From the NCBI RefSeq assembly GCF_007826885.1, contig NZ_ML675583.1:1-64000 (forward strand): a DNA stretch of 64,000 nucleotides, written 5' to 3'. Positions 5,960 through 28,361 of this stretch are shown piece after piece. Each line of letters begins with the position of its first letter. The stretch's first letter is position 1. A program made the translations under genes and the position numbers. Source of the stretch: Candidatus Nitrosocosmicus arcticus. GTDB lineage: Archaea > Thermoproteota > Nitrososphaeria > Nitrososphaerales > Nitrososphaeraceae. The notes under the pieces are model-generated. The model worked only from the letters and a program-made list of their open reading frames with translations. It was not told where the DNA came from and ran no database searches.

Positions 5960-7237
5960 TCATCCAAATGTAAATACATATGCTTGGAATCCTTTTCCTT
6001 TAATATCCACTAAAAGCGTTCGATTATCACTGCTATATGATTGGTGATTAACTATGTTGTACAGTCTTGGTTCATCTATAGTGAATTTACTGTTATTTTT
6101 AACGTCAATACCTTTGGATTTGTCCGATATCAAAGAATTGTCTTCATAAATGGTTACTTGACTTTGATTTTGGCTATTGTCACTGCTATTGACTCCAACT
6201 ACCATGTTAACGGACTTTGCTGAATAGCTTAGTAGTATACGGCCTGTATTACTTTGTAATTCCACATTATCCGGATTGTTTTTCCATTGTCCTTCTAAGT
6301 ATATTGTATTAGGTTTGATGCTTGAATTTGACGTCAATGAAGAAGATGGCAGGAAATAATTTATAGCCTGACCCAAATGAAGACCTTCTGGATTTCCTAT
6401 TGCTGAACGAGATGATTGATTTCCAAAATACAATTCGGGTGTTTTGATTTTTGAAAAGTCGATAGGTTGTGCGAGAAAACTACTAACGTTATTTTTATAA
6501 GTATTTTGAATTATATTACTATTGGTGTAATAAGAAAAAATATCATTATCTGTATTTTTAATATCTTTATTAGTATCTAGTTCATTTAGAAGAGACTGAA
6601 TTACCTTTTCTGTATGACCATAATCACTCTCACCAATCTTATCATACCTTACATATCCTTGAGCATCTATAAGATACATTCTAGGCCAATAGTTGTTCTC
6701 GTATGCATTCCAAGTACCATAGGCATTATCCTGGAGGACTGGATATTTTATACCGTATTTGTGCACTGCAGATTTTACATTATCAGTATTTTTTTCAAAT
6801 TCAAATTCTGGTGTATGAATACCAACTATTACTAATCCACTATCAGAATATTTTGTATCCCAGTCGATGAGATGTGGAAGAGTCCTTAGAACATTAATAC
6901 AACTATAAGTCCAAAAGTTGACAAGTACTACTTTCCCTTTTAATGAGACTAGTGATATTGGAGCACTATCATTGGTGTTTATACTTCCTTCAATTTTCTG
7001 AAATTCCGGGGCCCTTTTAAATTGCGATGTTGTATCATTATCCATAATCTTATCTTCACTAATTTCAGAGATTGTTTTTGATTTTTGAATACTGCCCCCG
7101 TCGTCTTGATTTAAAACTGCTTTGTTCAATATCTCACCAAAGACATAATTAGAGAAAGAAGAGGTGGTGTGTACATAACCCACAATTGATATCATAGATA
7201 AAATCACAATTACAATGACAAAATAATCCTTATTCAT
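5960..7237 (-). CDS. DipZ-like extracellular thioredoxin-fold protein lacking the resolving cysteine
   Basis: The 425-aa protein has an N-terminal membrane anchor (5-27), a redoxin domain (about 75-220) and a C-terminal beta domain starting KTPELYFGNQ and ending QAYVFTFG. This order matches the C-terminal half of DipZ/TlpA-type proteins. In those proteins the active site is usually WTYSCINC. Here it reads WTYSCINV: Cys113 is kept but position 116 is GTT (Val). The rest (NFWTYSC, HTPEFEFE, YPVLQD, WPRMYLID) is well conserved. A dithiol oxidoreductase is therefore unlikely; a peroxidatic or mixed-disulfide role is possible. Confidence 0.8.
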   Translation of the reverse strand: MNKDYFVIVIVILSMISIVGYVHTTSSFSNYVFGEILNKAVLNQDDGGSIQKSKTISEISEDKIMDNDTTSQFKRAPEFQKIEGSINTNDSAPISLVSLKGKVVLVNFWTYSCINVLRTLPHLIDWDTKYSDSGLVIVGIHTPEFEFEKNTDNVKSAVHKYGIKYPVLQDNAYGTWNAYENNYWPRMYLIDAQGYVRYDKIGESDYGHTEKVIQSLLNELDTNKDIKNTDNDIFSYYTNSNIIQNTYKNNVSSFLAQPIDFSKIKTPELYFGNQSSRSAIGNPEGLHLGQAINYFLPSSSLTSNSSIKPNTIYLEGQWKNNPDNVELQSNTGRILLSYSAKSVNMVVGVNSSDNSQNQSQVTIYEDNSLISDKSKGIDVKNNSKFTIDEPRLYNIVNHQSYSSDNRTLLVDIKGKGFQAYVFTFG

Positions 7238-16138: not shown

Positions 16139-17476
16139 ATGGATGATCTTTTAACAAGTGCAAATCGTATTCTAGAAAAAAATTGGAATGGAAATTATAC
16201 TATTCCAGCCAAGTCTCTCTATCCTCATCAATGGAGTTGGGATTCATGCTTTACAGCTATTGGAAATTCATATGTAAATACAGATAGAGCAATAAAAGAA
16301 CTCCAATACCTAATCAATGCACAATGGAAGAACGGTATGATTCCTAACATTGTTTTTGATGAAAAAGAGAAATCGTATTTTCCATCAACTGATTTCTATG
16401 AAATAAAAAGATCTGAAAATGCACCTGAAAATATTAGTACATCCGGAATAACTCAACCACCAGTGCACTCTATTGCTTGTTACTATATCTATAAAAATGC
16501 AAAAGATAAAACAAAGGGTTTAAGATTTTTAGAAAAAAATTATCAAAATTTAAAGAAATTCCAAAACTATCTTGTTACTAATAGGGATCCAGAAAATTCA
16601 GGCCTAACAACAATTTTACACCCGTGGGAATCAGGTATGGATAATTCTCCTATTTGGGATGAACCGTTGTCAAACATAGTTATTAAAGACTTGCCTGAAT
16701 TTAAAAACACAGATAAAAAAATTGTTGAGAGATCTAAAGCATCGCGAACTGACGAGGAAGATTACAAAAAATTATTATATCTTTTGGAGTTAATGAAGCA
16801 AAATAATTATGATGAGAAAAAAATATACTCCAAATTCCCTTTCAAGATAAAGGATGTTTTGTTTAGTAGTATATTTCATGTTGCAAATAAATATCTTGTA
16901 GAAATTGCAAATATCATAGGGGAAGATACAAAGGAGATTGAGAGATGGATCGCTCAAACAGAAAAAAACTTTTACAAATATTTTCTCTCAGATGAAAAAG
17001 AATTTAATTCGAGCGAAGATAATTTATTCTTTGACTATGACTTAATTCAAAAAGAATGGATCAAAAAGAAAACGGTAGCATCATTTATACCAATTTATAC
17101 TGGATTGATGTCAAAAGAAGATGTACAAAATTTTGTGAAATGGATAAAACATTCCCATTTCTGCACAAATAATGGTTTCTGTCATGTTCCGGCGGTTCCA
17201 GGAGCAGATACAAATGAACCTTATTTTAATAAAAGCAATTATTGGAGAGGCCCTATATGGATTAATACTAATTGGATGTTATGGATAGGCCTGCTAAAAT
17301 ATGGTTTTAAAGACGAGGCAGAAGTGATAAAAAGTGCTGTTTTTGAATTGGTTAAAAATCATGGATTTAGAGAATATTATAATCCCACCACTGGGGAAGG
17401 AATAGGAGGAAATGATTTTTCTTGGACTGCAGCACTGGTAATAGATATGATAAAAAGAAACGGGAATGAAATTTAA
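16139..17476 (+). CDS. GH63-type glycosidase, mannosylglycerate-hydrolase-like
   Basis: The 445-aa protein has an (alpha/alpha)6-barrel pattern of GH63/MGH-like enzymes: YPHQWSWDSCF near residue 25, GITQPPVHS, LHPWESGMDNSP, NYWRGPIWINTNW and GFREYYNPTTGEG, with GGNDFSWTAALV near the end. There is no signal peptide, so it acts in the cytoplasm. Mannosylglycerate or glucosylglycerate turnover is a plausible role by family. AAGGT lies upstream of ATG 16139-16141. Confidence 0.8.
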   Translation: MDDLLTSANRILEKNWNGNYTIPAKSLYPHQWSWDSCFTAIGNSYVNTDRAIKELQYLINAQWKNGMIPNIVFDEKEKSYFPSTDFYEIKRSENAPENISTSGITQPPVHSIACYYIYKNAKDKTKGLRFLEKNYQNLKKFQNYLVTNRDPENSGLTTILHPWESGMDNSPIWDEPLSNIVIKDLPEFKNTDKKIVERSKASRTDEEDYKKLLYLLELMKQNNYDEKKIYSKFPFKIKDVLFSSIFHVANKYLVEIANIIGEDTKEIERWIAQTEKNFYKYFLSDEKEFNSSEDNLFFDYDLIQKEWIKKKTVASFIPIYTGLMSKEDVQNFVKWIKHSHFCTNNGFCHVPAVPGADTNEPYFNKSNYWRGPIWINTNWMLWIGLLKYGFKDEAEVIKSAVFELVKNHGFREYYNPTTGEGIGGNDFSWTAALVIDMIKRNGNEI

Positions 17477-17500
17477 TTTAGTGTAAAATATTTACCGGAT

Positions 17501-17653
17501 ATGACCTTATGTCTAAATTGCAAAGATGCTGGGAACCCAGTATATACACACAAAATGTATGGTGAAACAGAGGAAGAATTAATAGAAAAATGCGAAGAGA
17601 CATGGCATAGAAGTTCATGGATATACAATAGAGCCGTTCAGAGGAAATGGTAA
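17501..17653 (+). CDS. Small Cys-containing protein (50 aa)
   Basis: A complete ORF from ATG 17501 to TAA 17651-17653. The product begins MTLCLNCKDAGNPVYTHKM and continues with an acidic helix (ETEEELIEKCEETWH) and a basic C-terminus. One C-x2-C pair and a later cysteine could bind zinc or form a disulfide. No family is recognised. It begins 24 bp after the glycosidase stop on the same strand and could share its transcript. Confidence 0.55.
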   Translation: MTLCLNCKDAGNPVYTHKMYGETEEELIEKCEETWHRSSWIYNRAVQRKW

Positions 17654-17888
17654 AGAACTTGGAACATTTTAGAAAATTAATAAAACTAACTGATTTTTAT
17701 CATATTTTTTAAACTAAATTGGACTGATTTGCAGAATTAAGCAAAGACCTAAGCAACCTAGTTTCACATGTAGTTTTTGTTAGGTTTTCAACAACTGAAT
17801 GAAAATTAGAACAGATAAGGCTCAGAAAAAGTTGTCCTTGAAAACCAAATGATTGCGGATTTAGTAACCGCAACCTAATGATGTTCAT

Positions 17889-18261
17889 TTATTCTAGTTT
17901 CTTTGCGTAGTCTCCCATTCCAGTAAGGCCAATTGAAACACATGGTTCATTCCCCACTACCCATGCATCATGTCCTGGCGGTATTACTGCTGAATCTTCT
18001 GATCCTCCTTCAATTTCGGGACCATTATCTATCCTTACTTTCATTCTTCCGGATATTATTACTGAAGTATGCGGAGCCTGACAACTAACTATCTGTATGC
18101 ACTAGTGGTTTTACGCATTTTCCCCAACTCCATCCTGGCTCAAGTGTTGCTCTACCGATGATCACATTTCCCAGGTTTACAATTTCTAGCTTTCCCTTTT
18201 CAAAGGTTCGCACTTCATCAGGTGTGTCAAAACTTTTTGCTAATATCTCTGTTGTTGACAT
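17889..18261 (-). pseudogene. Cupin-domain protein disrupted by a 4-bp duplication
   Basis: From ATG 18259-18261 the frame encodes MSTTEILAKSFDTPDEVRTF, then a cupin start (RATLEPGWSWGKCVKPLVHT) and stops at 18085. Removing four bases from the tandem aactaact at 18083-18090 restores one 122-aa frame: HTDSCQAPHTSVIISGRM, then VIPPGHDAWVVGNEPC, ending at TAA 17889-17891. The restored protein is a complete single-cupin. The cause is either a recent natural frameshift or an assembly error in a short repeat. The initially open ORF extends upstream to 18351 but the cupin start fits best. Confidence 0.8.
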
Positions 18262-18507
18262 TTTTATTATCAAAAGTAGGTTTGAATTACTTTGATTATA
18301 AGCAATATTCCAAATCTGTCCAGATTTTTGAATAGATCTAATAATTTGCATAGTATAACTAATCTTCTGTTATAGCAATGAGTATCGATATATTATCATC
18401 CCTTTAGGACAAGTATATATGAAGCTAATACAATAAAAATTTCATAGATTGTTACTATTGACAACAGAAATTGAATTGAGTATACTAAACTCCTTCACCT
18501 TTTTCCA

Positions 18508-19161
18508 TTATTGAACTTTGAGTTCAACACTACCAAAAAGAACCGAAAATGCCTTGCACCATATCAATACTGTATCATACTTTGACAAGTCAGTACCGGT
18601 TGGGATATTGTAATTTTGATTTCCATTATTAGCTTTTAGTTTCCCAAGGTTTACAATATCAGATGCACTCTTGTCTGTTGATAAATAAACATACAGGTCT
18701 GGTCCGTTTGTTACCTTTAGATTTTCTAATCTAAGGATATTCGAATCGACCTGCTGAAGTGGGACTACTTTTGCTGTCCCTTCAGCATTGTGAATTCCAT
18801 CGTTAACGCCTATAAACGAGCCTGATATTAGCGAATTATTTGGTTCAGACAAACTTTCAGTTTCATTCATAGATTCATCAATGATGTTAGTAGCGTTACT
18901 ATCTGAATTGGCATACTGAATCATCAATTCATTTTTCTGAGAAGCACTCATGTTTTCTGCAGATTTAGCCCTCTCATCTTCGCTCATTATACTAAAATTC
19001 TCAAAAGAGACCAAAGCAGCAGAATTTGGAGGAAAGGGTTCATTTATTTCTGTTGATATGAACAATGGCGAGGCTAGATACACTGTTACCACAGCAGCAA
19101 TTATGGCGACAGTTAGATAAGTGATTTTTTTATAAAGGTTTTTGTGTTCTGTATCTTTCAC
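18508..19161 (-). CDS. Membrane-anchored DM13-domain protein
   Basis: About 217 aa from GTG 19159-19161; a TTG at 19194 would add eleven hydrophobic residues. A single membrane anchor is followed by a linker and a C-terminal DM13 domain: SGSFIGVNDGIHNAEGTAKV, NGPDLYVYLST, and VLIWCKAFSVLFGSVEL. DM13 domains are proposed electron-transfer or redox modules with a near-invariant cysteine in this last motif. The domain would lie outside the membrane. No redox partner is next to it. Confidence 0.82.
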   Translation of the reverse strand: MKDTEHKNLYKKITYLTVAIIAAVVTVYLASPLFISTEINEPFPPNSAALVSFENFSIMSEDERAKSAENMSASQKNELMIQYANSDSNATNIIDESMNETESLSEPNNSLISGSFIGVNDGIHNAEGTAKVVPLQQVDSNILRLENLKVTNGPDLYVYLSTDKSASDIVNLGKLKANNGNQNYNIPTGTDLSKYDTVLIWCKAFSVLFGSVELKVQ

Positions 19162-19354
19162 GAGAAGTAGATTAATCTTGAGGATTATAAGCAATTTTCC
19201 ATATTATGTCCACATCTGTTCCAAATCCTAAATTTAATAAAAATCATATTTGGTTTTTTTTGGTTTTATCTAGAGAAATATTGAGTGTTACAGATCACTA
19301 CTGCTTAAAAAAAAGATAATTTAACAACGAAAAGAGTTGAATTAGCTTGGCAAT

Positions 19355-19642
19355 TTATTCCCGAGTTATCTTAAGGAATATGATCAGGCCTGCCATCTCA
19401 GCAATGGAAATGGAAAGTAGATATGGTACAAGTAAATCTGAGAATAACGCTGACATGGTAATGTAAGAATAAACGGAGATAATGCTATTTATCATAAGTA
19501 AGCTGCAAAAAAAGATCAAGCCTAAAGTAAAGTTGGCTCTGCTGTTTCGGTATATTTTTGTAAATGTAAAAACCAAAGCACCTAGCAATCCCAAATTTAC
19601 CATATTAATAAGTGCGTTGGTTGTCCCCATCCAAATGTCCAT
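19355..19642 (-). CDS. Small three-helix membrane protein
   Basis: A 95-aa product with three hydrophobic helices (about 8-30, 38-61 and 68-92) joined by short basic loops. No family can be named. Start is ATG 19640-19642. It is on the same strand as the DM13 gene and 193 bp upstream of its start, so a shared role is possible but unsupported. Confidence 0.55.
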   Translation of the reverse strand: MDIWMGTTNALINMVNLGLLGALVFTFTKIYRNSRANFTLGLIFFCSLLMINSIISVYSYITMSALFSDLLVPYLLSISIAEMAGLIIFLKITRE

Positions 19643-20117
19643 TTAACTAAATCGTATGTAACTGCAAAGTTAGTGTTTATTTACTTATTTCCATATCTAT
19701 TCCATATCCGAATCTTAGGTTTTATTTTTTTCATCCTTTGTACGCATTTGACATCATTTAAGACGTTTCGTTATTTATCCTCATTGGCATTCAGAACTAG
19801 TGATGGTTCTTACCTATAAGATGCATAAACTTTCGTCCTATAGACTGGGCCCTAACACCAGTTAGTATTAAAGTATTAGGGAAAAAAGTAGAATTTAGCT
19901 CGGAAAGCTAAGTAGCATGTGTCACCCCTCCTGCACACTAAACAAAGTAGATCTCTTGCGTAAATATCATAGTTTAACAGTATTTTCTAACCATTGTCGA
20001 ATTTTATAACTAACAGACATTCCTTATTTTGTAGTTTACCAGTCCTGATACGATATCTGATATCCTATCATACCTACTCAATCTGTTTCTGAAACACCAT
20101 CCATTATCCTGTATTAG
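19643..20117. other. Intergenic region left of the integrated element
   Basis: 475 bp with no ORF that can be supported. It contains a hairpin with adjacent T-run on the minus strand (19880-19911). On the minus strand a GGAGGGGTGA motif (about 19923-19932) precedes a seven-codon ATG frame that ends inside that hairpin. No copy of the tRNA-Lys 3' end was seen here. Confidence 0.4.
19880..19911 (-). terminator. Candidate hairpin terminator
   Basis: An inverted repeat TTAGCT / AGCTAA (19895-19900 and 19906-19911, 5-nt loop) is followed on the minus strand by TTCTACTTTTTT. It may end transcription from the HTH gene. Hairpin terminators are not standard in archaea, so the T-run may be the functional part. 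Confidence 0.4.
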
Positions 20118-20651
20118 TCAAGCCCCCGGGATTTTTCCCTTCTGAACTTCATCTTCTAAGCACTTCTTTCTTAATATCAGACAATTGATCTCATGTTGTA
20201 ACCGGTTTTTCATGCTGTTGAAGTTTTTGAATTGATTTACGCAATTAATAAGATCATCGACATCAATTTCGAATAATTCGAATTGTTTCATCTTCTCTAT
20301 TATTCTAAGGAGAAATGGCAAAATCTTTTGATGATCTCTATAGAAATCGATAAACTCGGTTAGATTCTTTAATGTCAAGTATTCTCCGTAGTATACCCTA
20401 ACTTCATTATAGCTTAGATCTAGAGATGTCAAAACTTCAATAGTGCTTTTTCCCTCTGCAAACATTTCAAAGGCTTTGGCTCGATTTGATTTAGGTTTTT
20501 CTTGCTCTGGCTCCTTATAGTGTTCCTTTAATATTTTGTTAATATCTCGGGGTGAGATCCTGGCTGTTTTCGCGATCTCACGAAATGTCTTGCCGTCTTC
20601 ATGCAGCTTAATTACCAATTCTTTCTTTTGATTCCTATTGAGAACCATCAA
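20118..20651 (-). CDS. Helix-turn-helix DNA-binding protein
   Basis: The 177-aa product begins with a resolvase-like HTH (GKTFREIAKTARISPRDINKIL, residues about 18-39). A second possible HTH-like stretch (GKSTIEVLTSLDLSYNEVRVYY) follows at 66-87, then a long helical region with a Lys/Glu-rich coiled-coil tail. This suits a regulator or a recombination accessory protein. Start is ATG 20649-20651 or the next codon. It faces away from the PrimPol gene's promoter and lies within the putative mobile element. Confidence 0.7.
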   Translation of the reverse strand: MMVLNRNQKKELVIKLHEDGKTFREIAKTARISPRDINKILKEHYKEPEQEKPKSNRAKAFEMFAEGKSTIEVLTSLDLSYNEVRVYYGEYLTLKNLTEFIDFYRDHQKILPFLLRIIEKMKQFELFEIDVDDLINCVNQFKNFNSMKNRLQHEINCLILRKKCLEDEVQKGKIPGA

Positions 20652-21311
20652 TTTCTTATGTTTAAAAAATGTATAAAAGGTAGTTTCAAGTAAATACCAT
20701 TTTTTTTAAAATTATACCTTTGATATCCTTGATTCCAACAACTTTTTCTTCAAAAAACCCATGAGTGAAAACTACTTGTAGTATGATATGAATTATTTTT
20801 ACATAGCAAAGTTTGATCTTGATTTGTTACATAAACTAACTTTTTACTTTTTAGACTTTAGCGAATCTTAATTTCAGACTATTTTCTACTTTTGTGATGG
20901 ATGTATTCATCATACAACTTGGAGTGATTGTTGAAATAAAGAAATATAATGTCATTAGATTGTCCTAAAATATTTGATAGTTGTCTATACGTTATTAACA
21001 ACCTATCTTTGTATCCAAATAGTTTTTTAGTATAGAAATAAAATTACAAGATTAAAACAGAAATGTTTATGAATATTGCATCCACGGTCTGAATGATCAC
21101 CGTTGTGAGAAGATGGTACAAATATTTAGGCTTGACTAATTATGACTAAAAACTGGTAATAAAGGTAATAATCTTTTTTTATAATTTTTGCATAATATAA
21201 CTGCTCTATCATAAAATATTAAAATTAGTTCCATTTTTGATCAAAAATTAATATATTTTTGTTATTACCGTTATTACCGATAAAATATATAGTTTCTAAT
21301 AAATAGATTTT
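20652..21311. other. AT-rich non-coding region between HTH and PrimPol genes
   Basis: 660 bp without a supportable ORF. Its left half is upstream of the HTH gene and should carry that promoter. Its right part has the GGTAATAA inverted array and a 16-bp palindrome (ATTTTTGATCAAAAAT at 21233-21248). It could contain a replication origin or operators. Confidence 0.5.
21155..21278. repeat. Inverted pair of doubled GGTAATAA motifs
   Basis: The left half at 21155-21171 is GGTAATAAAGGTAATAA. The right half at 21262-21278 is its reverse complement with one mismatch (TTATTACCGTTATTACC). Each half has two motif copies nine bases apart. The 90-bp spacer is almost pure A/T and includes a palindrome. The array sits 34 bp beyond the PrimPol stop. 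Confidence 0.7.
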
Positions 21312-24275
21312 CTATGATTTAGTTTCAGTTTCTTCTATTTGAGCTAAGAGAAAATCGATTAACGATTGTTTAGGACCAAACGCCATCTTTACGCTTTTTC
21401 CATTTATCATTCTGTTGCCATACTCAAACCCGGGAATTTCGTTTGCAACATCACTTAGAGTTTTTAGATTGTTAAATCCAACTTTCTTTTTAATTATTTC
21501 TTTTAATATTGGGTATGTCATGCAGATTTTCTCTTCACCATTTTTATAAGTTTGTTTTATTAGGTATAGAATAAGCCTATTATCAAGACAAAATGCTATT
21601 CTATCAATGAAACCCGTACTGGTAAGTTCATAACCTGTGCTGGTTCTATTTGGGATTGGAGGTAAAGATTTGGCATATTTATTAAAATGTTCATTTATCT
21701 CATTTACCATAAAGGCTCTTAAATCCACAGTTGTATTTTCTTTATTTTCCTCCAGTGCATTGTTCTCTAATATGTCGTTTATCCAACTAGGTAAAGTTTT
21801 GCCTACAGCACTATAGAAGCCTCTCAGTATTTCTTTAGATACATCTTCCCAAGCAAGAACTCCGTTTATCAAATTAGGATTATCTTTTATATAAGAATAA
21901 GCAAAATCCCCTAAAATTCCAAATTGGTCCATTTTTGGCTTTAACCACTCTTCAAAAACCTTGGATTCTTCTTTGGTTTTAGATGAGTATTTATTAAAGT
22001 AAATAGGTAGAATTCTTCGCATAAAACCGGAATCATCTGGCGGCGGGCTCCGATTGCTTGTTAAAATTAATGGACTTAGGGCTTGAATAGACGTATAATT
22101 ACTATAATTTACCATTAAACCTCTTACGTCCTGATTTTCAACTGCGCTTTTCAAAGTTTCAATCAGGTTGAGTAACTTTGGTTCTGTTAGGGCACCAACC
22201 CCATTAACTAGACGAGGATACGCATCCATACTAATAACATGTCCTAATCTAGCCTCCGTATTGATCTTTGCAAAACTTAACTCATGGCTAATTCTCGAAC
22301 TTTTACTTTCGTATTTTCTCCATATGGCTAACGCGATACAACCCAGGGTAGTTTTGCCCGCATTAGAAGATCCAAATAAGAATAAGTATGGCATCCATCT
22401 TCTATTCTGTTTTAGTATAAAGCTAAATGACGACATTAAAGCCCATTTAAGCACAGTAGAAAAAACTCCTTTTTCCCATTTATTGACTGATTCATCAAGT
22501 AAATGTATACAAGATAGTATTTTTTCCGCTTCCGTATTCTGAATAAATAAAGAATAGTTATTGCTCTGTGAGGCGCTATTAGAAAAAGGGTTCACCTTAT
22601 TGTAAACTATAGGAATATACGTTTGGTTAGTATCGCTGGCTGTGAATTCCCCATCTATAATGTAGTATCCAGGATTTACTGCAGCATCATATATTATTGC
22701 TTTTCCTGTTTCAATGAATGCAGAAATTATTGCCGATACGGTATCATGTATATTAGATTTTTTTAAAATCATGTTTCTAGCTTGGAGTTCATTAATGATA
22801 TATTCTAGACTTCCTGGACCAATTCGTATTGACTTTTTTTTGGATTCTATTAAAAATAAGAGTTCGTATTGGATGCTCTTGTTTATTGGATTATCAAGTA
22901 TAATGACTTTTGTAAGGAAAGCATCAATCAATATATCTCCAAAATTCAGATAGCTGGTATGTAACTTCTCTGAGTTATTTTTCTTGTCATTATTTATTTC
23001 TCTTGAACTGACAAAACCATATACTATTTTTTTAAAACCCGAATGTGCTACTATCAATTTGATAGGGTTACCAATCGAGGTTATCTTGAAAACATGTTCT
23101 GAAAGCTCTTCCTTTATATCATCAGGCAGGATACCTTCTACCGTTTGTTTCATATTCAAATTCATTGTATTATCTAGGATTTTTGTAATACTTTTGATAA
23201 ATTGATTAGCAGCTTCGTCATTAGCAATTATTTTAGTAAAGACTTCAGAAAGATGTGTAATTCCAGTAACTTCCTCGCCGTTGGTCCATTTTTGATAAGT
23301 TTTATGTACTACCATAACCCTTTGATCTTTTTGTTCATCATTACAACGGACACACAGTCTAATTACAAACCTTTTGATACAGTCTAAAGAATGAAACTTT
23401 TTAAATAACAATCCCGATAATCCGAAAATGATGTCGTCTCTTTGACCTTTAACATAAACAGGTTCTAGTATCTCTATCAATTTTTTTTCCTGTTCATCAG
23501 AGAGGGTATTACACTCCGGTTTAGATTCTAAATTTATGAGACTATTAGTATTCTTGTTACTTATTTCCTTCTTTTCATAAAATGTGCTTTTCTTGATTGT
23601 ATCGTTGTCAAATCCGGTTAGTAACTTGACGATGTCTTCTTTTGAAAACATAACAGGTTTGGCATGCTTTATGAACTCGTATCTATTACCAATATTAGAA
23701 AGGGATGGTGGCATTAACACGTAAGCACCTTCAGCTTTTAGAGCAATTTCACTATGTTCATCATTTCCTTTCCATAATTTCTTTGACTTAATATCTTCGG
23801 CACCAAATTCCTTGGGATCGAAAGCAATTATGTAATGTTTCCCATTACCGCTTCCTGTTTTGGTTTGAGTAGTATTTCTTATTGCGTTTTCAATTTCAGG
23901 TTCATTGATTTTTTTTATGATTGAATAAAAACGATCTTCCGCATCCTTTCCATCGATGTCAAAAACAATTAAGCCAGATACTTTTCCAGTTACAATCCCT
24001 ATATTACAATTTCCTTTATCATTGAATAATTTTACTACTACTTCCCTTGATTGTTTTTTCTGTATCCATTCTGACCATGAGCCATATCCTCCAGCTGCCT
24101 TTCCATCAGCTATCGCACCAACATTTTTCTGTATGTTGCCATCCCAAACTTGTTTTATTATTTCACCAGGTTTTGGAATAGGAAGTACGTTATAGCCTTT
24201 AGAACAATATAATAAAGATATATCTAACATATTGGTAAGCCCATTGATATTAAGAAAATTCTCAGAAACTTGCAA
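21312..24275 (-). CDS. PrimPol-superfamily 3 helicase replication protein
   Basis: The 987-aa protein pairs an N-terminal archaeo-eukaryotic primase-polymerase domain with a C-terminal D5/SF3-like helicase. PrimPol features are GYGSWSEW, catalytic VFDIDG at about residue 100 and the GSGNGKHY motif at about 140. The helicase Walker A is FGSSNAGKTT at about 630, followed by Walker B-like ISMDAYPRL and LTSNRSPPP. Such proteins replicate archaeal and bacterial plasmids and viruses. Start is TTG 24273-24275 right after the preceding gene's stop, with AGGGAAGAGAG upstream, so translation is probably coupled. Confidence 0.88.
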   Translation of the reverse strand: MQVSENFLNINGLTNMLDISLLYCSKGYNVLPIPKPGEIIKQVWDGNIQKNVGAIADGKAAGGYGSWSEWIQKKQSREVVVKLFNDKGNCNIGIVTGKVSGLIVFDIDGKDAEDRFYSIIKKINEPEIENAIRNTTQTKTGSGNGKHYIIAFDPKEFGAEDIKSKKLWKGNDEHSEIALKAEGAYVLMPPSLSNIGNRYEFIKHAKPVMFSKEDIVKLLTGFDNDTIKKSTFYEKKEISNKNTNSLINLESKPECNTLSDEQEKKLIEILEPVYVKGQRDDIIFGLSGLLFKKFHSLDCIKRFVIRLCVRCNDEQKDQRVMVVHKTYQKWTNGEEVTGITHLSEVFTKIIANDEAANQFIKSITKILDNTMNLNMKQTVEGILPDDIKEELSEHVFKITSIGNPIKLIVAHSGFKKIVYGFVSSREINNDKKNNSEKLHTSYLNFGDILIDAFLTKVIILDNPINKSIQYELLFLIESKKKSIRIGPGSLEYIINELQARNMILKKSNIHDTVSAIISAFIETGKAIIYDAAVNPGYYIIDGEFTASDTNQTYIPIVYNKVNPFSNSASQSNNYSLFIQNTEAEKILSCIHLLDESVNKWEKGVFSTVLKWALMSSFSFILKQNRRWMPYLFLFGSSNAGKTTLGCIALAIWRKYESKSSRISHELSFAKINTEARLGHVISMDAYPRLVNGVGALTEPKLLNLIETLKSAVENQDVRGLMVNYSNYTSIQALSPLILTSNRSPPPDDSGFMRRILPIYFNKYSSKTKEESKVFEEWLKPKMDQFGILGDFAYSYIKDNPNLINGVLAWEDVSKEILRGFYSAVGKTLPSWINDILENNALEENKENTTVDLRAFMVNEINEHFNKYAKSLPPIPNRTSTGYELTSTGFIDRIAFCLDNRLILYLIKQTYKNGEEKICMTYPILKEIIKKKVGFNNLKTLSDVANEIPGFEYGNRMINGKSVKMAFGPKQSLIDFLLAQIEETETKS

Positions 24276-24276
24276 T

Positions 24277-24465
24277 TTAGCTCTCTTCCCTACTAAATTT
24301 GCTTATACATTTGTCACAAACGATGATTTCCAATATACCATAGATGCCACAGTCTACGTCAGTCTTAATTGTACCCACACGGTCACACCCGGAGGCGTTA
24401 CAAACATCAACTTTATTACGCTCTGTTTTACTATCGTATTTTGTTGTAGAAAAACTCACAGTCAT
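24277..24465 (-). CDS. Small zinc-ribbon-like protein of the element
   Basis: A 62-aa product with cysteines in VCNASGCDRVG, DVDCGI and VCDKCISKF, an arrangement suggesting a zinc ribbon. It starts at ATG 24463-24465, one base after the stop of the ribbon-helix-helix gene, and ends one base before the PrimPol start. This tight order implies one polycistronic message. It may be a replication accessory or regulator, but function is inferred only from position. Confidence 0.65.
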   Translation of the reverse strand: MTVSFSTTKYDSKTERNKVDVCNASGCDRVGTIKTDVDCGIYGILEIIVCDKCISKFSREES

Positions 24466-24466
24466 T

Positions 24467-24619
24467 TTACAACACCTTTAGTTCGGTTGATTTGCCAGAA
24501 TTAACCGAACCTTCTATTTTTTCTAGTAACTCGCTTATGATGTCGTCATAAGTTTGTTCCTTCCGCCCTAGATACTTGAGCTTATTTCTTGTCTCCTTTC
24601 TAATAACAATAGTTGACAT
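24467..24619 (-). CDS. Ribbon-helix-helix-like small protein (50 aa)
   Basis: An ORF from ATG 24617-24619 to TAA 24467-24469. It reads MSTIVIRKETRNKLKYLGRK, then EQTYDDIISELLEKIEG and a short polar tail. This matches the short RHH/antitoxin-like proteins of archaea that start with a beta strand and carry a T-Y-D-D-I-I-x-x-L-L helix. It is the first gene of the RHH-zinc ribbon-PrimPol series and could repress it. No toxin partner is visible. Confidence 0.7.
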   Translation of the reverse strand: MSTIVIRKETRNKLKYLGRKEQTYDDIISELLEKIEGSVNSGKSTELKVL

Positions 24620-24676
24620 CGATTACTAATAGTATTAACTAATAATTATATACCACTAAGTATACTTGATAATCAT

Positions 24677-25549
24677 TTGTCTTATAGTTCTTCTCCAAAT
24701 GTAAGAAATGTTATCAATGAAAGGAAAATGAAAGAGGCGTTGATAAATTATATAAAGAAAAATCCACAATGTAATAAAAATACCGTAATACATCATTGTG
24801 TTGAAGAAAAAGGAATTGGATCACGCCGTCCCTTACTCAATATGATAAAAAGACTAATAGATGGAAGAATTCTAAAGTGTGAAAAAAGAGGCAAATCACA
24901 TCTGTTAACTGTAGTTTCTGAAAATCTCTTGGTATCGATTCCATCGGATTTGGAAGCTGTGTTTGCCAAATTCGTTGGATTCTTGAACGCAGTCAAAGAA
25001 GTTGAAAAAGAAAGAACATATTTAAATCAAAAATACCTTTATCGTGGTAAAAAAGCTATGCAAGATATTGCAATAGTAGATCGGGTGCTCTTGCTACCAT
25101 ATGAAGTATTGGAAGTCATAACGGAAATTTATATGAAATTCTATGAATCCGTAATAAAATTCAAACTTGACAATCCAAATCAAATTAGTCAATTGTATGG
25201 TCATTATTGTGAATACAAGGATAAAATGCAGTTATTCCTTTCTGATAATTTCTCTCCCACGAAAGATTTGATTAATTTATTAGAAAATAGAAAGATTGAA
25301 TCCCCTCTAGGTAAATTATGCAATATTGTAGACATATGCAAATTCTTAGGAATTGAAAAATATTTTTATGATTTTTTATATTTACTAATGACACGGAACA
25401 TTGAAGCATGTCTCTTATTATACGGCTTAGAAAATAAGAAAGCGAAAAATAACCATCTTGCAAGACGAGACAAAAAGATACGACACAATATTGATATTAT
25501 TATTGACCAGATTAGGTCAAAGGTAGATTACTTTCTAAACGAGCAATGA
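24677..25549 (+). CDS. Winged-helix-like uncharacterised protein of the element
   Basis: The 290-aa protein starts at TTG 24677-24679 with the divergent RHH operon 57 bp away. Residues 15-75 look like a winged helix (MKEALINYIKKNPQCNKNTV, GSRRPLLNMIKRLIDGRILKCEKRG). The remaining 215 residues are helical and unassigned, with one KKAMQDIAIVDRVLLLPYEV segment. It may control the divergent operon or serve partition or copy-number control. It converges on the integrase gene. Confidence 0.6.
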   Translation: MSYSSSPNVRNVINERKMKEALINYIKKNPQCNKNTVIHHCVEEKGIGSRRPLLNMIKRLIDGRILKCEKRGKSHLLTVVSENLLVSIPSDLEAVFAKFVGFLNAVKEVEKERTYLNQKYLYRGKKAMQDIAIVDRVLLLPYEVLEVITEIYMKFYESVIKFKLDNPNQISQLYGHYCEYKDKMQLFLSDNFSPTKDLINLLENRKIESPLGKLCNIVDICKFLGIEKYFYDFLYLLMTRNIEACLLLYGLENKKAKNNHLARRDKKIRHNIDIIIDQIRSKVDYFLNEQ

Positions 25550-25590
25550 AATATGTATTTGCAGAGCAAAAAAAAGGGCCGCGTGTATAT

Positions 25591-26994
25591 CTAAGTAACT
25601 ATCTCTTTTTTATTTATACTGCGTTTTACTTTCTCTAGTATCTCTGGTTTGACATGCGCTAGAGATGGATTTTGTTGAATAATGGATAACATTTGTGCAA
25701 GTTTATTCTCCATATCGGTTGTCAAATCAGAAATTTTCTTGGAATAGACATTTTCTAATTCTTCAAATCGTCTCTTTTCACTTTGCTTAATCTCATCAAA
25801 TGCTTCAGATGTCAACGGGTAGCTACATTTTGAGCAATACTTGTTTTCTAGTATATTCACTAATGTACATCGAGGGCAATTAGAAATCAGAGGTTTTGTC
25901 TTCTGGATTTCTTCTGAGATTATTCCATTATGCTCTAGAATCTTATTTTTTAGTTCATTGCCCATCCTTGTCTTTATATATCGTGATCCTTGTCTTGAAT
26001 TCATAGACCACCTAACCTTCTTTTTTAATGCATATTCTGGTAGATAATCCGAGTCTGCAGTTATTGCAGAATGCCTAATGCAATAAGGATTCCACTTCTT
26101 TGTTCTCAAAAGAAATTCCATCTTTTCTATTTCTTGTGTATCCTTGATTGATCCTTCATTTAACAAACGTACAATCCTTTTTTGTAATTGTTTCATAACT
26201 GTCCATAATGCTTCAGGGGTTATTGGAGAACCGGATTGAATATTGCATATTAACCTGGCGCTAGGTTCATTCTTAAAGGGATGTTCGTTGAGCCAATCTC
26301 TAACGTAAGGAAAAGAGCATGTTAACAGTATAGGACCAGTACCGGTCTTTGCTTCATAAGGTATTTCACCTTCACCGTATTTTTCTTTAAGACGAATATG
26401 TTTTATTTTTAGAAGTGTAACCTCATGGGGACGAGCGTCTAAATCCCAAAGCAGTGTTAAAGCAGCTTTATTTCTTTTATAATTGTCATATTTAACAATA
26501 GTTAAGACATCCTCCTTTTCCCATAGCTCGGATTCTAAATAAGGGCTTAATCTCTTAGTTTTCTTCTTATCTATTTTTAAGAATGAAGGTGTTTTCCATT
26601 CTGCTATTGGAATATAGATATCTTCATCGTATCGATTAGAACTTAGTAATCCGCCAGAATTTTTAGTATTATGTAACCATCTAAAGAAATATTTTATCCT
26701 ACCAAGATAGTCATTCCATGTTGTAATCCATCTTTTATCAGGATCTACCTGCGAATTCTTAATCTTTGTATCTAGAAAAGCTATAATTTGATCCCTCTTA
26801 GTAATAGTTTGGAATGATATGGTAGGTTCCAAAAATCTTCCAAATGCTATTATGGTTTTAAGGTTATTATTTTGATATTTATCGGACGTACTCGATGACT
26901 TCATAAATTTATAAAATTCATTAACCAATTTTTGATTATTTTCATTAGGTATAGTTTGAATATTGCTGATAGTTGTCGATAGTTTAACTGGCAA
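25591..26994 (-). CDS. Tyrosine recombinase / integrase with C-terminal zinc ribbon
   Basis: The 467-aa protein has an N-terminal core-binding domain (20-130) and a catalytic domain. Catalytic candidates are the arginine in LDARPHEVTLLK (about 187), YCIRHSA (about 305, with Tyr or Cys where HxxR usually has His), W in VRWSMNSRQ, and the tyrosine in SRYIKTRMG (about 336). A C-terminal zinc ribbon (CPRC...CSKC, about 373-395) and a coiled coil follow. This extra tail is seen in other archaeal integrases. It starts 64 bp from the 3' end of tRNA-Lys, the likely attachment site. Confidence 0.87.
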   Translation of the reverse strand: MPVKLSTTISNIQTIPNENNQKLVNEFYKFMKSSSTSDKYQNNNLKTIIAFGRFLEPTISFQTITKRDQIIAFLDTKIKNSQVDPDKRWITTWNDYLGRIKYFFRWLHNTKNSGGLLSSNRYDEDIYIPIAEWKTPSFLKIDKKKTKRLSPYLESELWEKEDVLTIVKYDNYKRNKAALTLLWDLDARPHEVTLLKIKHIRLKEKYGEGEIPYEAKTGTGPILLTCSFPYVRDWLNEHPFKNEPSARLICNIQSGSPITPEALWTVMKQLQKRIVRLLNEGSIKDTQEIEKMEFLLRTKKWNPYCIRHSAITADSDYLPEYALKKKVRWSMNSRQGSRYIKTRMGNELKNKILEHNGIISEEIQKTKPLISNCPRCTLVNILENKYCSKCSYPLTSEAFDEIKQSEKRRFEELENVYSKKISDLTTDMENKLAQMLSIIQQNPSLAHVKPEILEKVKRSINKKEIVT

Positions 26995-27058
26995 TCATAT
27001 CACTCTCTAATGACTATATTCGTTAAAGTTGATCTGATATATGAACCCTATTACTCAG

Positions 27059-27146
27059 CGGGCCCGTGGGGATTCGAACCCCAGACAGCCGGATTTCTTT
27101 CTATGAGTTAAAAGTCCGGTACTCTACCTGGCTGAGCTACGGGCCC
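27059..27146 (-). tRNA. tRNA-Lys(TTT) with 14-nt intron
   Basis: The minus strand folds as a 74-nt tRNA plus intron: acceptor GGGCCCG pairs with CGGGCCC, D-stem GCTC/GAGT, anticodon stem CCGGA/TCCGG and T-arm TGGGG-TTCGAAT-CCCCA. The anticodon loop is CTTTTAA with TTT at 27110-27112. Fourteen bases at about 27095-27108 interrupt the loop after position 37, the canonical archaeal intron site. CCA is not encoded. The discriminator is G. Confidence 0.93.
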
Positions 27147-27333: not shown

Positions 27334-27408
27334 AGTAACATGTATCCAAACTATGATATAATTAATTTCAATTATACATTCTGATTACAATGAGTAACAT
27401 AACAAAAA
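27334..27408. repeat. 75-bp direct repeat, copy 1 (leader plus first codons)
   Basis: Identical to 28039-28113. It covers 56 bp upstream of the first small secreted-protein gene and its first 19 coding bases. It therefore includes the shared promoter region; an AT-rich ATGATATAATTAA is a possible TATA element. Confidence 0.85.
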
Positions 27409-27659
27409 CCCACAAAGTTGGACTTTTTGCAATGTTTATTGCAGCAGCCCTAATTGGTTCAGTAGTAGCTTTTGGCGATAACATGGCATATGCAGGCGGA
27501 AAGAAGAAATCTAACGATGCAGAACAAGAAATTGAACAAGGACAAGCAAATGAACAATCAGGACAGTGTGTTACTGGAACAATATCATTGATTAACTGTA
27601 ACAACGTAGGATTACTATTTCAAAATAACGACGGCAACTTGGCATTAGGCCAACAATAA
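27390..27659 (+). CDS. Secreted small acidic protein, paralog 1
   Basis: The 89-aa precursor has a signal peptide (residues 1-35; FAMFIAAALIGSVVAFG, with MAYA before the cleavage region). The mature peptide has a Glu/Gln-rich run (EQEIEQGQANEQ) and a conserved end with QCVTG, INCNNVGLLFQ and GQQ. Two cysteines could form one disulfide. It is a close paralog of 28095-28361, with identical upstream DNA. The family seems common in Nitrososphaeria, but its role is not known. Confidence 0.8.
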   Translation: MSNITKTHKVGLFAMFIAAALIGSVVAFGDNMAYAGGKKKSNDAEQEIEQGQANEQSGQCVTGTISLINCNNVGLLFQNNDGNLALGQQ

Positions 27660-28094: not shown

Positions 28095-28113
28095 ATGAGT
28101 AACATAACAAAAA
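28039..28113. repeat. 75-bp direct repeat, copy 2
   Basis: Exact match to 27334-27408, ending within codon 7 of the second paralog. The sequences diverge on both sides immediately. Confidence 0.85.
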
Positions 28114-28361
28114 ACTATAAAGTAGGAATATTTGCAATGTTTATTGCAGCAGCCCTAATTGGTTCAGTAGCAGCTTTTGGCGATAACATGGCATTTGCAA
28201 CAAAGAAATCAAGCAATGAGTCAGAGCAAGAAATCGAGCAAGAACAAGAAAACGAACAGAATGCACAATGTGTATCTGGAGATTTCACAATAGCTGGATG
28301 TAACAACGTAGGTTTAATGTTCCAATTCCAAGACGGTAACATAGCCGCAGGACAACAATAA
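28095..28361 (+). CDS. Secreted small acidic protein, paralog 2
   Basis: The 88-aa precursor mirrors paralog 1: same signal peptide with AAALIGSVAAFGDNMAFA, a Glu/Gln-rich run (EQEIEQEQENEQNAQ), then QCVSGDFTIAGCNNVGLMFQ and GQQ. Differences concentrate in the mature acidic part. A T-rich tract directly after the stop (28366-28379) is a likely terminator. Secretion is predicted; an envelope, matrix or peptide role cannot be decided. Confidence 0.8.
   Translation: MSNITKNYKVGIFAMFIAAALIGSVAAFGDNMAFATKKSSNESEQEIEQEQENEQNAQCVSGDFTIAGCNNVGLMFQFQDGNIAAGQQ

Follow-up and report, generated by a model that had tools for sequence, protein, structure and literature searches.

The closest described relatives of the locus presented here are the thaumarchaeal cryptic integrated elements, which combine a tyrosine integrase, a tRNA 3' end as target, a short att and a primpol gene and carry no virion or conjugation genes (PMC6563490). 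Origin iterons are not mentioned in that account of these elements (Krupovic 2019, PMC6563490). As for replication, plasmid pRN1 needs orf56/orf904 and a stem-loop of ~100 nt situated ~54 bp behind orf904, which is conserved in form and not in sequence and is said to be devoid of iteron structure (PMC4234260). The initiator helicases of SaPI and SCC elements, on the other hand, bind iterons located just downstream of their own genes (PMC7581432). The element described below belongs to an already known class, that of the cryptic integrated elements, while the design of its putative origin (opposed 9-bp iterons 3' of PrimPol) is new, no description of it having been found in the literature searched.

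The host is an ammonia-oxidising archaeon of soil, of the genus Nitrosocosmicus. The window, i.e., the whole stretch of 64,000 nucleotides that was analyzed, corresponds to contig C6:1-64000 of its 2.64-Mb genome, assembled in 22 contigs (genome code G000). On the minus strand, a tRNA-Lys gene is followed by an integrase, a ribbon-helix-helix (RHH) protein, a 62-aa Cys protein, a PrimPol-helicase and an HTH protein, with a single divergent gene on the plus strand separating the integrase from the RHH gene. The features, read from the tRNA toward the left edge, are as follows.

27058-27146, minus strand: tRNA-Lys(UUU) with a 14-nt intron, the integration target (ARAGORN; Rfam RF00005, 58 bits)
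27059-27074, minus strand: att core AATCCCCACGGGCCCG, formed by the tRNA 3' end (a further copy lies on contig C9)
25591-26994, minus strand: tyrosine integrase, 467 aa, with a C-terminal zinc ribbon (Pfam, PHROG, alignment)
24677-25549, plus strand: wHTH-like divergent regulator, 290 aa (weak family match; mainly position)
24467-24619, minus strand: RHH/CopG-like protein, 50 aa (DUF7557, E 4e-7; VapB-like match)
24277-24465, minus strand: Cys-rich protein, 62 aa (homologue at locus L138, E 2.5e-11)
21312-24275, minus strand: PrimPol-helicase replication protein (Rep), 987 aa (PF09250, E 5e-15; open frame)
21262-21278, minus strand: iteron cluster 2 (GGTAATAAC GGTAATAA), opposed to cluster 1 (period-9 tandem)
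21155-21171, plus strand: iteron cluster 1 (GGTAATAAA GGTAATAA) (period-9 tandem)
20118-20651, minus strand: HTH protein, 177 aa (paralogue in a tRNA-linked element on G000:C1)
19948-20113, minus strand: 3' remnant of an IS5-type (DDE_Tnp_4) element, last ~165 bp (broken left edge)
17473-19727, no strand assigned: host DNA, the DM13 locus (collinear with G002, G003, G004 and G012; homology stops at 19727)

The preliminary description had placed an integrase, small DNA-binding proteins, a PrimPol-helicase and a tRNA gene in order and had seen no virion or conjugation genes. Both observations held, as the gene order was confirmed with every frame open and no such family appeared among the six proteins of the element. 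The element shares with the thaumarchaeal cryptic integrated elements a tyrosine integrase next to the 3' end of a tRNA and the lack of viral hallmark or conjugation genes, and differs from them in having no distal att at the locus. The integrase gene is unsplit, with an intact frame outside the tRNA, unlike the split integrase of SSV-type proviruses. As in the pRN1 family, the RHH gene lies upstream of PrimPol, here with the 62-aa gene between them. A PADLOC search found nothing.

The tRNA at the element end was confirmed by ARAGORN and by Rfam, its identity, Lys(TTT) with a 14-nt intron, being obtained with introns allowed. The Pfam match of the integrase was below the cut-off (E 1e-3) and the PHROG integrase match reached E 6e-12; alignment with seven relatives showed that the catalytic R, K, RH, W and Y are all kept. 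Its first codon lies 63 to 64 bp from the tRNA 3' end, in agreement with the 64 bp reported earlier. Members of the same integrase subfamily are found 60 to 65 bp behind tRNAs Lys-UUU, Arg-UCG, Arg-UCU, Ile-GAU and Ala-CGC, and 94 bp behind tRNA-Lys-CUU, and in relatives carrying this subfamily the att repeat corresponds to the last 17 to 21 nt of the tRNA, with a copy 11 to 33 kb away. Two integrase families use tRNA-Lys. At tRNA-Lys of G012 stands a decayed version of the window's integrase (74% identity), the second family starts 48 to 57 bp behind it in G001, G003 and others, and in G005 no integrase follows the tRNA. Elsewhere in the window's genome, a tRNA-Ser(GCT)-linked element (G000:C1:185.8k-191.8k) carries a related integrase starting 65 bp behind the tRNA together with a gene paralogous to the HTH gene of the window (76% DNA identity), and the integrase remnants at tRNA-Lys(CTT) (G000:C14, ~53.8-54.2k) and tRNA-Ala(CGC) (C7, ~152k) are older, decayed insertions of the window's integrase subfamily. 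A tandem pair of secreted proteins of ~89 aa and unknown family (window positions 27390-27659 and 28095-28361) is conserved genus-wide beside tRNA-Lys.

Rep is homologous to proteins of HAV2 (5e-49), pORA1 (3e-47), pTI1 and pIT3, with a further relative in Methanobacterium virus Drs3; no PrimPol relatives were found among viral contigs. Its distribution is patchy, with PrimPol present in 7 of 300 genomes of the class, all from one family. The helicase core conserves a Walker A motif (GSSNAGKTT), and the putative SF3 helicase region gave weak matches to DUF5906/DUF927. A structure model of the C-terminal part (pLDDT 73), whose best fold match (E 0.07) is only suggestive, hints at a winged helix there. 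Assignment of the helicase and C-terminal wHTH domains, drawn from motifs and weak matches, is thus tentative. The full-length PrimPol model (pLDDT 42) was unusable and was discarded. As to homology with ORF904, the replication protein of pRN1, neither sequence nor profile searches gave Rep a solved-structure match with E<1.

Directly 3' of the PrimPol stop, the segment 21141-21311 is AT-rich (17.5% GC) and contains 9-bp iterons in two clusters of opposite orientation, at a distance of 107 bp. The arm of cluster 1 is GGTAATAAAGGTAATAA, with its inverted counterpart at 21262-21278; the arms are 17 nt long, 94% complementary and separated by a spacer of 90 nt with 16% GC. In a strict paired test, in which each arm had to hold a period-9 tandem and the two had to be inverted complements, the only matches in the 64 kb were those 3' of PrimPol, and none of 300 shuffles gave one; at periods 7, 8 and 10 to 13 the same test found none. 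The claim is carried by this strict test, because the window's value in a relaxed iteron score was reached in 6 of 60 shuffles. Folding of the iteron-region DNA was not significant (z -1.6).

Iterons of the same period and diverged sequence were found at ten other PrimPol loci, one of them a second element of the window's own genome. The strict test picked out G013:C160 (iteron TTGGAACAT), G277:C261 (ATGTAATTT) and G249:C49 and C394 (GGTTACATC), as well as G306:C150, G323:C747, G085:C14 and G201:C61 (G085 and G201 fitting the PrimPol profile mainly in the primase part) and G277:C438, where the iterons lie ~1 kb downstream. The sequences differ from locus to locus and the design is one. Among 1.73 Mb of DNA scanned, only two matches fell away from PrimPol, both in AT-rich DNA. 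Versions with 8/9-bp iterons were found at L177, L190 and L195, and in the second element of the window's genome, on contig C9, the only period-8/9 inverted pairs within 80 kb lie ~125 nt beyond the stop of PrimPol. Outside the phylum, the relaxed test was reached in 0 of 60 shuffles for HAV2, Drs3 and pTI1 and in 1 of 60 for pORA1, and gave no score for pT26-2, pGE2 and pIT3. The Rep homologues L176/L198, L192 and L197 were without clear iterons, and one alignment (A2) proved too divergent to be scanned for patterns.

On this pattern, the opposed clusters are probably the replication origin. That they are instead operator sites or a terminator is unlikely, even though RHH proteins bind short repeats and the array of pTI1 lies upstream of its RHH gene: the other cases are found 3' of Rep, mostly 0 to 400 bp from the stop, the 800 bp preceding the frame hold none, arms ~100 nt apart are unlike those of a terminator, and the position is that of the essential pRN1 stem-loop and of the SaPI iterons (PMC4234260, PMC7581432). 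Like pRN1 and pIT3/pORA1, the element has an RHH gene upstream of the PrimPol-helicase and, close behind rep, an inverted-repeat structure of ~100 nt that keeps its form and not its sequence (PMC4234260, PMC3869888), although here 9-bp direct iterons make up the arms, whereas the pRN1 origin is said to be devoid of iteron structure. The probable origin shares with those of SaPI Rep and SCC Cch2 the short iterons immediately behind the helicase gene (PMC7581432), but differs in the archaeal PrimPol fusion, the strict 9-bp period and the two opposed clusters, and no helper phage is known for it. Origins of this type would thus combine a pRN1-like placement and size with SaPI-like direct repeats. 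Direct repeats inside the arms are not needed for a stem-loop, so that recognition of the 9-bp units by a protein, namely Rep, is favored.

Comparison with relatives shows that the locus is a mobile element. On the 5' side of the tRNA, nine relatives are collinear with the window from 27.4 kb onward, and on its 3' side nearly every relative has something different in the first kilobases. A gene order common to all relatives would have spoken against a mobile element, and they do not have it in common; mobile-element homologues do exist, in archaeal plasmids and viruses. The order integrase (-), wHTH (+), RHH (-), Cys protein (-), PrimPol (-) recurs at L138, in another genus, with a divergent gene at the corresponding place. 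At L135 a tRNA-like end, integrase, PrimPol and HTH gene come in order, L025 has RHH, a small gene analogous to that of the 62-aa protein, and PrimPol, and part of the module is also present at L139. We consider it very probable that the locus is a real integrated PrimPol element, a thaumarchaeal cryptic integrated element with its distal end cut off, as directly supported by the gene content, the conserved module, the tRNA hotspot, the att rule of the relatives, the broken left edge and the iteron pattern.

The preliminary description left a choice between a minimal plasmid-like element and a decayed virus. The former fits better, given the intact frames, the putative origin and an RHH-PrimPol operon like that of pIT3 and pTI1, where the RHH gene is directly upstream of PrimPol; the latter fits less well. 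There is only a small chance that the cluster derives from a virus or a conjugative element and has lost the virion or transfer genes. PrimPol relatives do exist in HAV2 and Methanobacterium virus Drs3 and the distal part is missing from the locus, but inspection of open reading frames showed that the homologous L138 locus of ~10 kb is also without virion or transfer genes, and the small plasmids pIT3 and pTI1 have the RHH-PrimPol operon too. Two independent insertions, with integrase and PrimPol neighbors by chance, are very improbable: the same integrase subfamily does sit beside tRNAs in many genomes without this PrimPol, but the module order is repeated in another genus, tRNA, integrase, PrimPol and HTH come together at L135, and integrase, regulator, small protein and PrimPol do so again on C9.

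The integrated PrimPol element has lost its left boundary. No left att had been found before, and it is indeed absent from the window. Around 19 to 21 kb, where a search for a duplicate of the tRNA 3' sequence had been suggested, the best match to the 20-nt att core was 10/20 ungapped, below the shuffle mean (scan of 19.7-21.3 kb), and in the whole window exact k-mers, the 20-mer and gapped alignment gave nothing above shuffles. Genome-wide, the 20-mer with up to 3 mismatches hit only tRNA-like sites. However, a 16-nt exact copy of the core is present at G000:C9:134490-134523, differing in the first four bases of the 20-mer and therefore missed at that threshold. The missing att is explained by the host DNA, intact to 19,727, abutting the IS5-type remnant: a rearrangement removed the distal end, so that 20118 marks a break instead of a natural terminus. 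A new mobile unit was considered for the dispersed repeat at 19948-20113 and rejected, because the repeat is the 3' end of the IS5-type element. In G002, G003, G004 and G012 an ArsR-type gene without a match in the window's genome follows the DM13 locus, which in G004 and G002 lies in the same orientation 122 to 198 kb behind tRNA-Lys. The gene adjoining tRNA-Lys in G005 is 133 to 223 kb away in complete relatives and has no counterpart in the window's genome among the matches listed. When the distal flanks of three complete genomes were compared over 100 kb, no collinear host flank emerged. At window position 19227-19301, this genome has a deletion of ~2.5 kb, which in relatives holds one CcdA-like gene and one gene of 404 aa; a paralogue of the 404-aa gene is at 5960-7237.

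On C9 the junction reads conserved element end, AATCCCCACGGGCCCG, start of a second-family integrase and another PrimPol. This second PrimPol element (minus strand, ~126-135 kb) comprises a type-2 integrase (417 aa), an opposite-strand gene of 398 aa, an 81-aa protein and a PrimPol-like frame of 880 codons. In the simplest reading, the ancestral order would have been tRNA-Lys, the window's element, att, the second element and an array, with everything distal of the HTH gene having moved. At L057 (G005:C88), two identical tRNA-Lys-type att junctions are separated by 14,741 bp, and genes are repeated on either side, reflecting either a tandem duplication or the assembly of a circular element.

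Behind tRNA-Lys, a repeat of ~50 bp (GAACCCTACTACCACNNGGAACTTAATCCCCACGCGCCCARACT), with a core resembling the tRNA 3' end, punctuates 40 to 100 kb in G001 to G004 at a spacing of ~1 to 25 kb. The copies number 8, 14, 8 and 12, respectively, all on the tRNA's strand and none on the opposite one, and the repeat was found in 13 of 15 genomes of the genus (0 for a reversed-pattern control). The arrays are located as follows.

G001:C24
G002:C1:1122k-1175k
G003:C1:552k-623k
G004:C1:220k-321k
C9:67151-134523, in the window's own genome, on one strand

Judged by sequence, these repeats possibly form a cassette-like array of att-like sites. The tRNA-Lys locus might even be an integron-like capture platform: PrimPol replicons with tRNA-anchored integrases would sit at the tRNA, a cargo array of >100 kb would follow, its segments divided by ~50-bp sites that all point one way and have a core matching the 3' end of the tRNA, and the replicons would use a hybrid iteron/stem-loop origin so far undescribed in archaea; we regard this broader view as rather doubtful.

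In the proposed life of the element, the integrase would join the circular replicon to the tRNA-Lys 3' end by recombination in the last ~16 nt, which would keep the tRNA intact and put the integrase gene 63 bp behind it. In the free form, Rep may bind both opposed iteron clusters 3' of its own gene, its helicase domain would melt the AT-rich spacer and both strands would then be primed, while the RHH protein may repress the rep operon. A later rearrangement, with one end near the IS5-type copy, would have removed or moved the distal end, so that this copy presumably no longer excises in the normal way.

To our knowledge, ammonia-oxidising archaea have no replicating vectors. The RHH, Cys protein and PrimPol genes and the iteron region of ~130 bp form a compact module that would provide a testable origin and a seed for such vectors, and the module recurs with independent iteron sequences. 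The period-9 rule bears on whether the 3' structure of pRN1-type replicons acts as a stem-loop or as protein-binding repeats, and it favors protein binding. The iteron pattern may also offer a route to origins beside other archaeal PrimPol genes.
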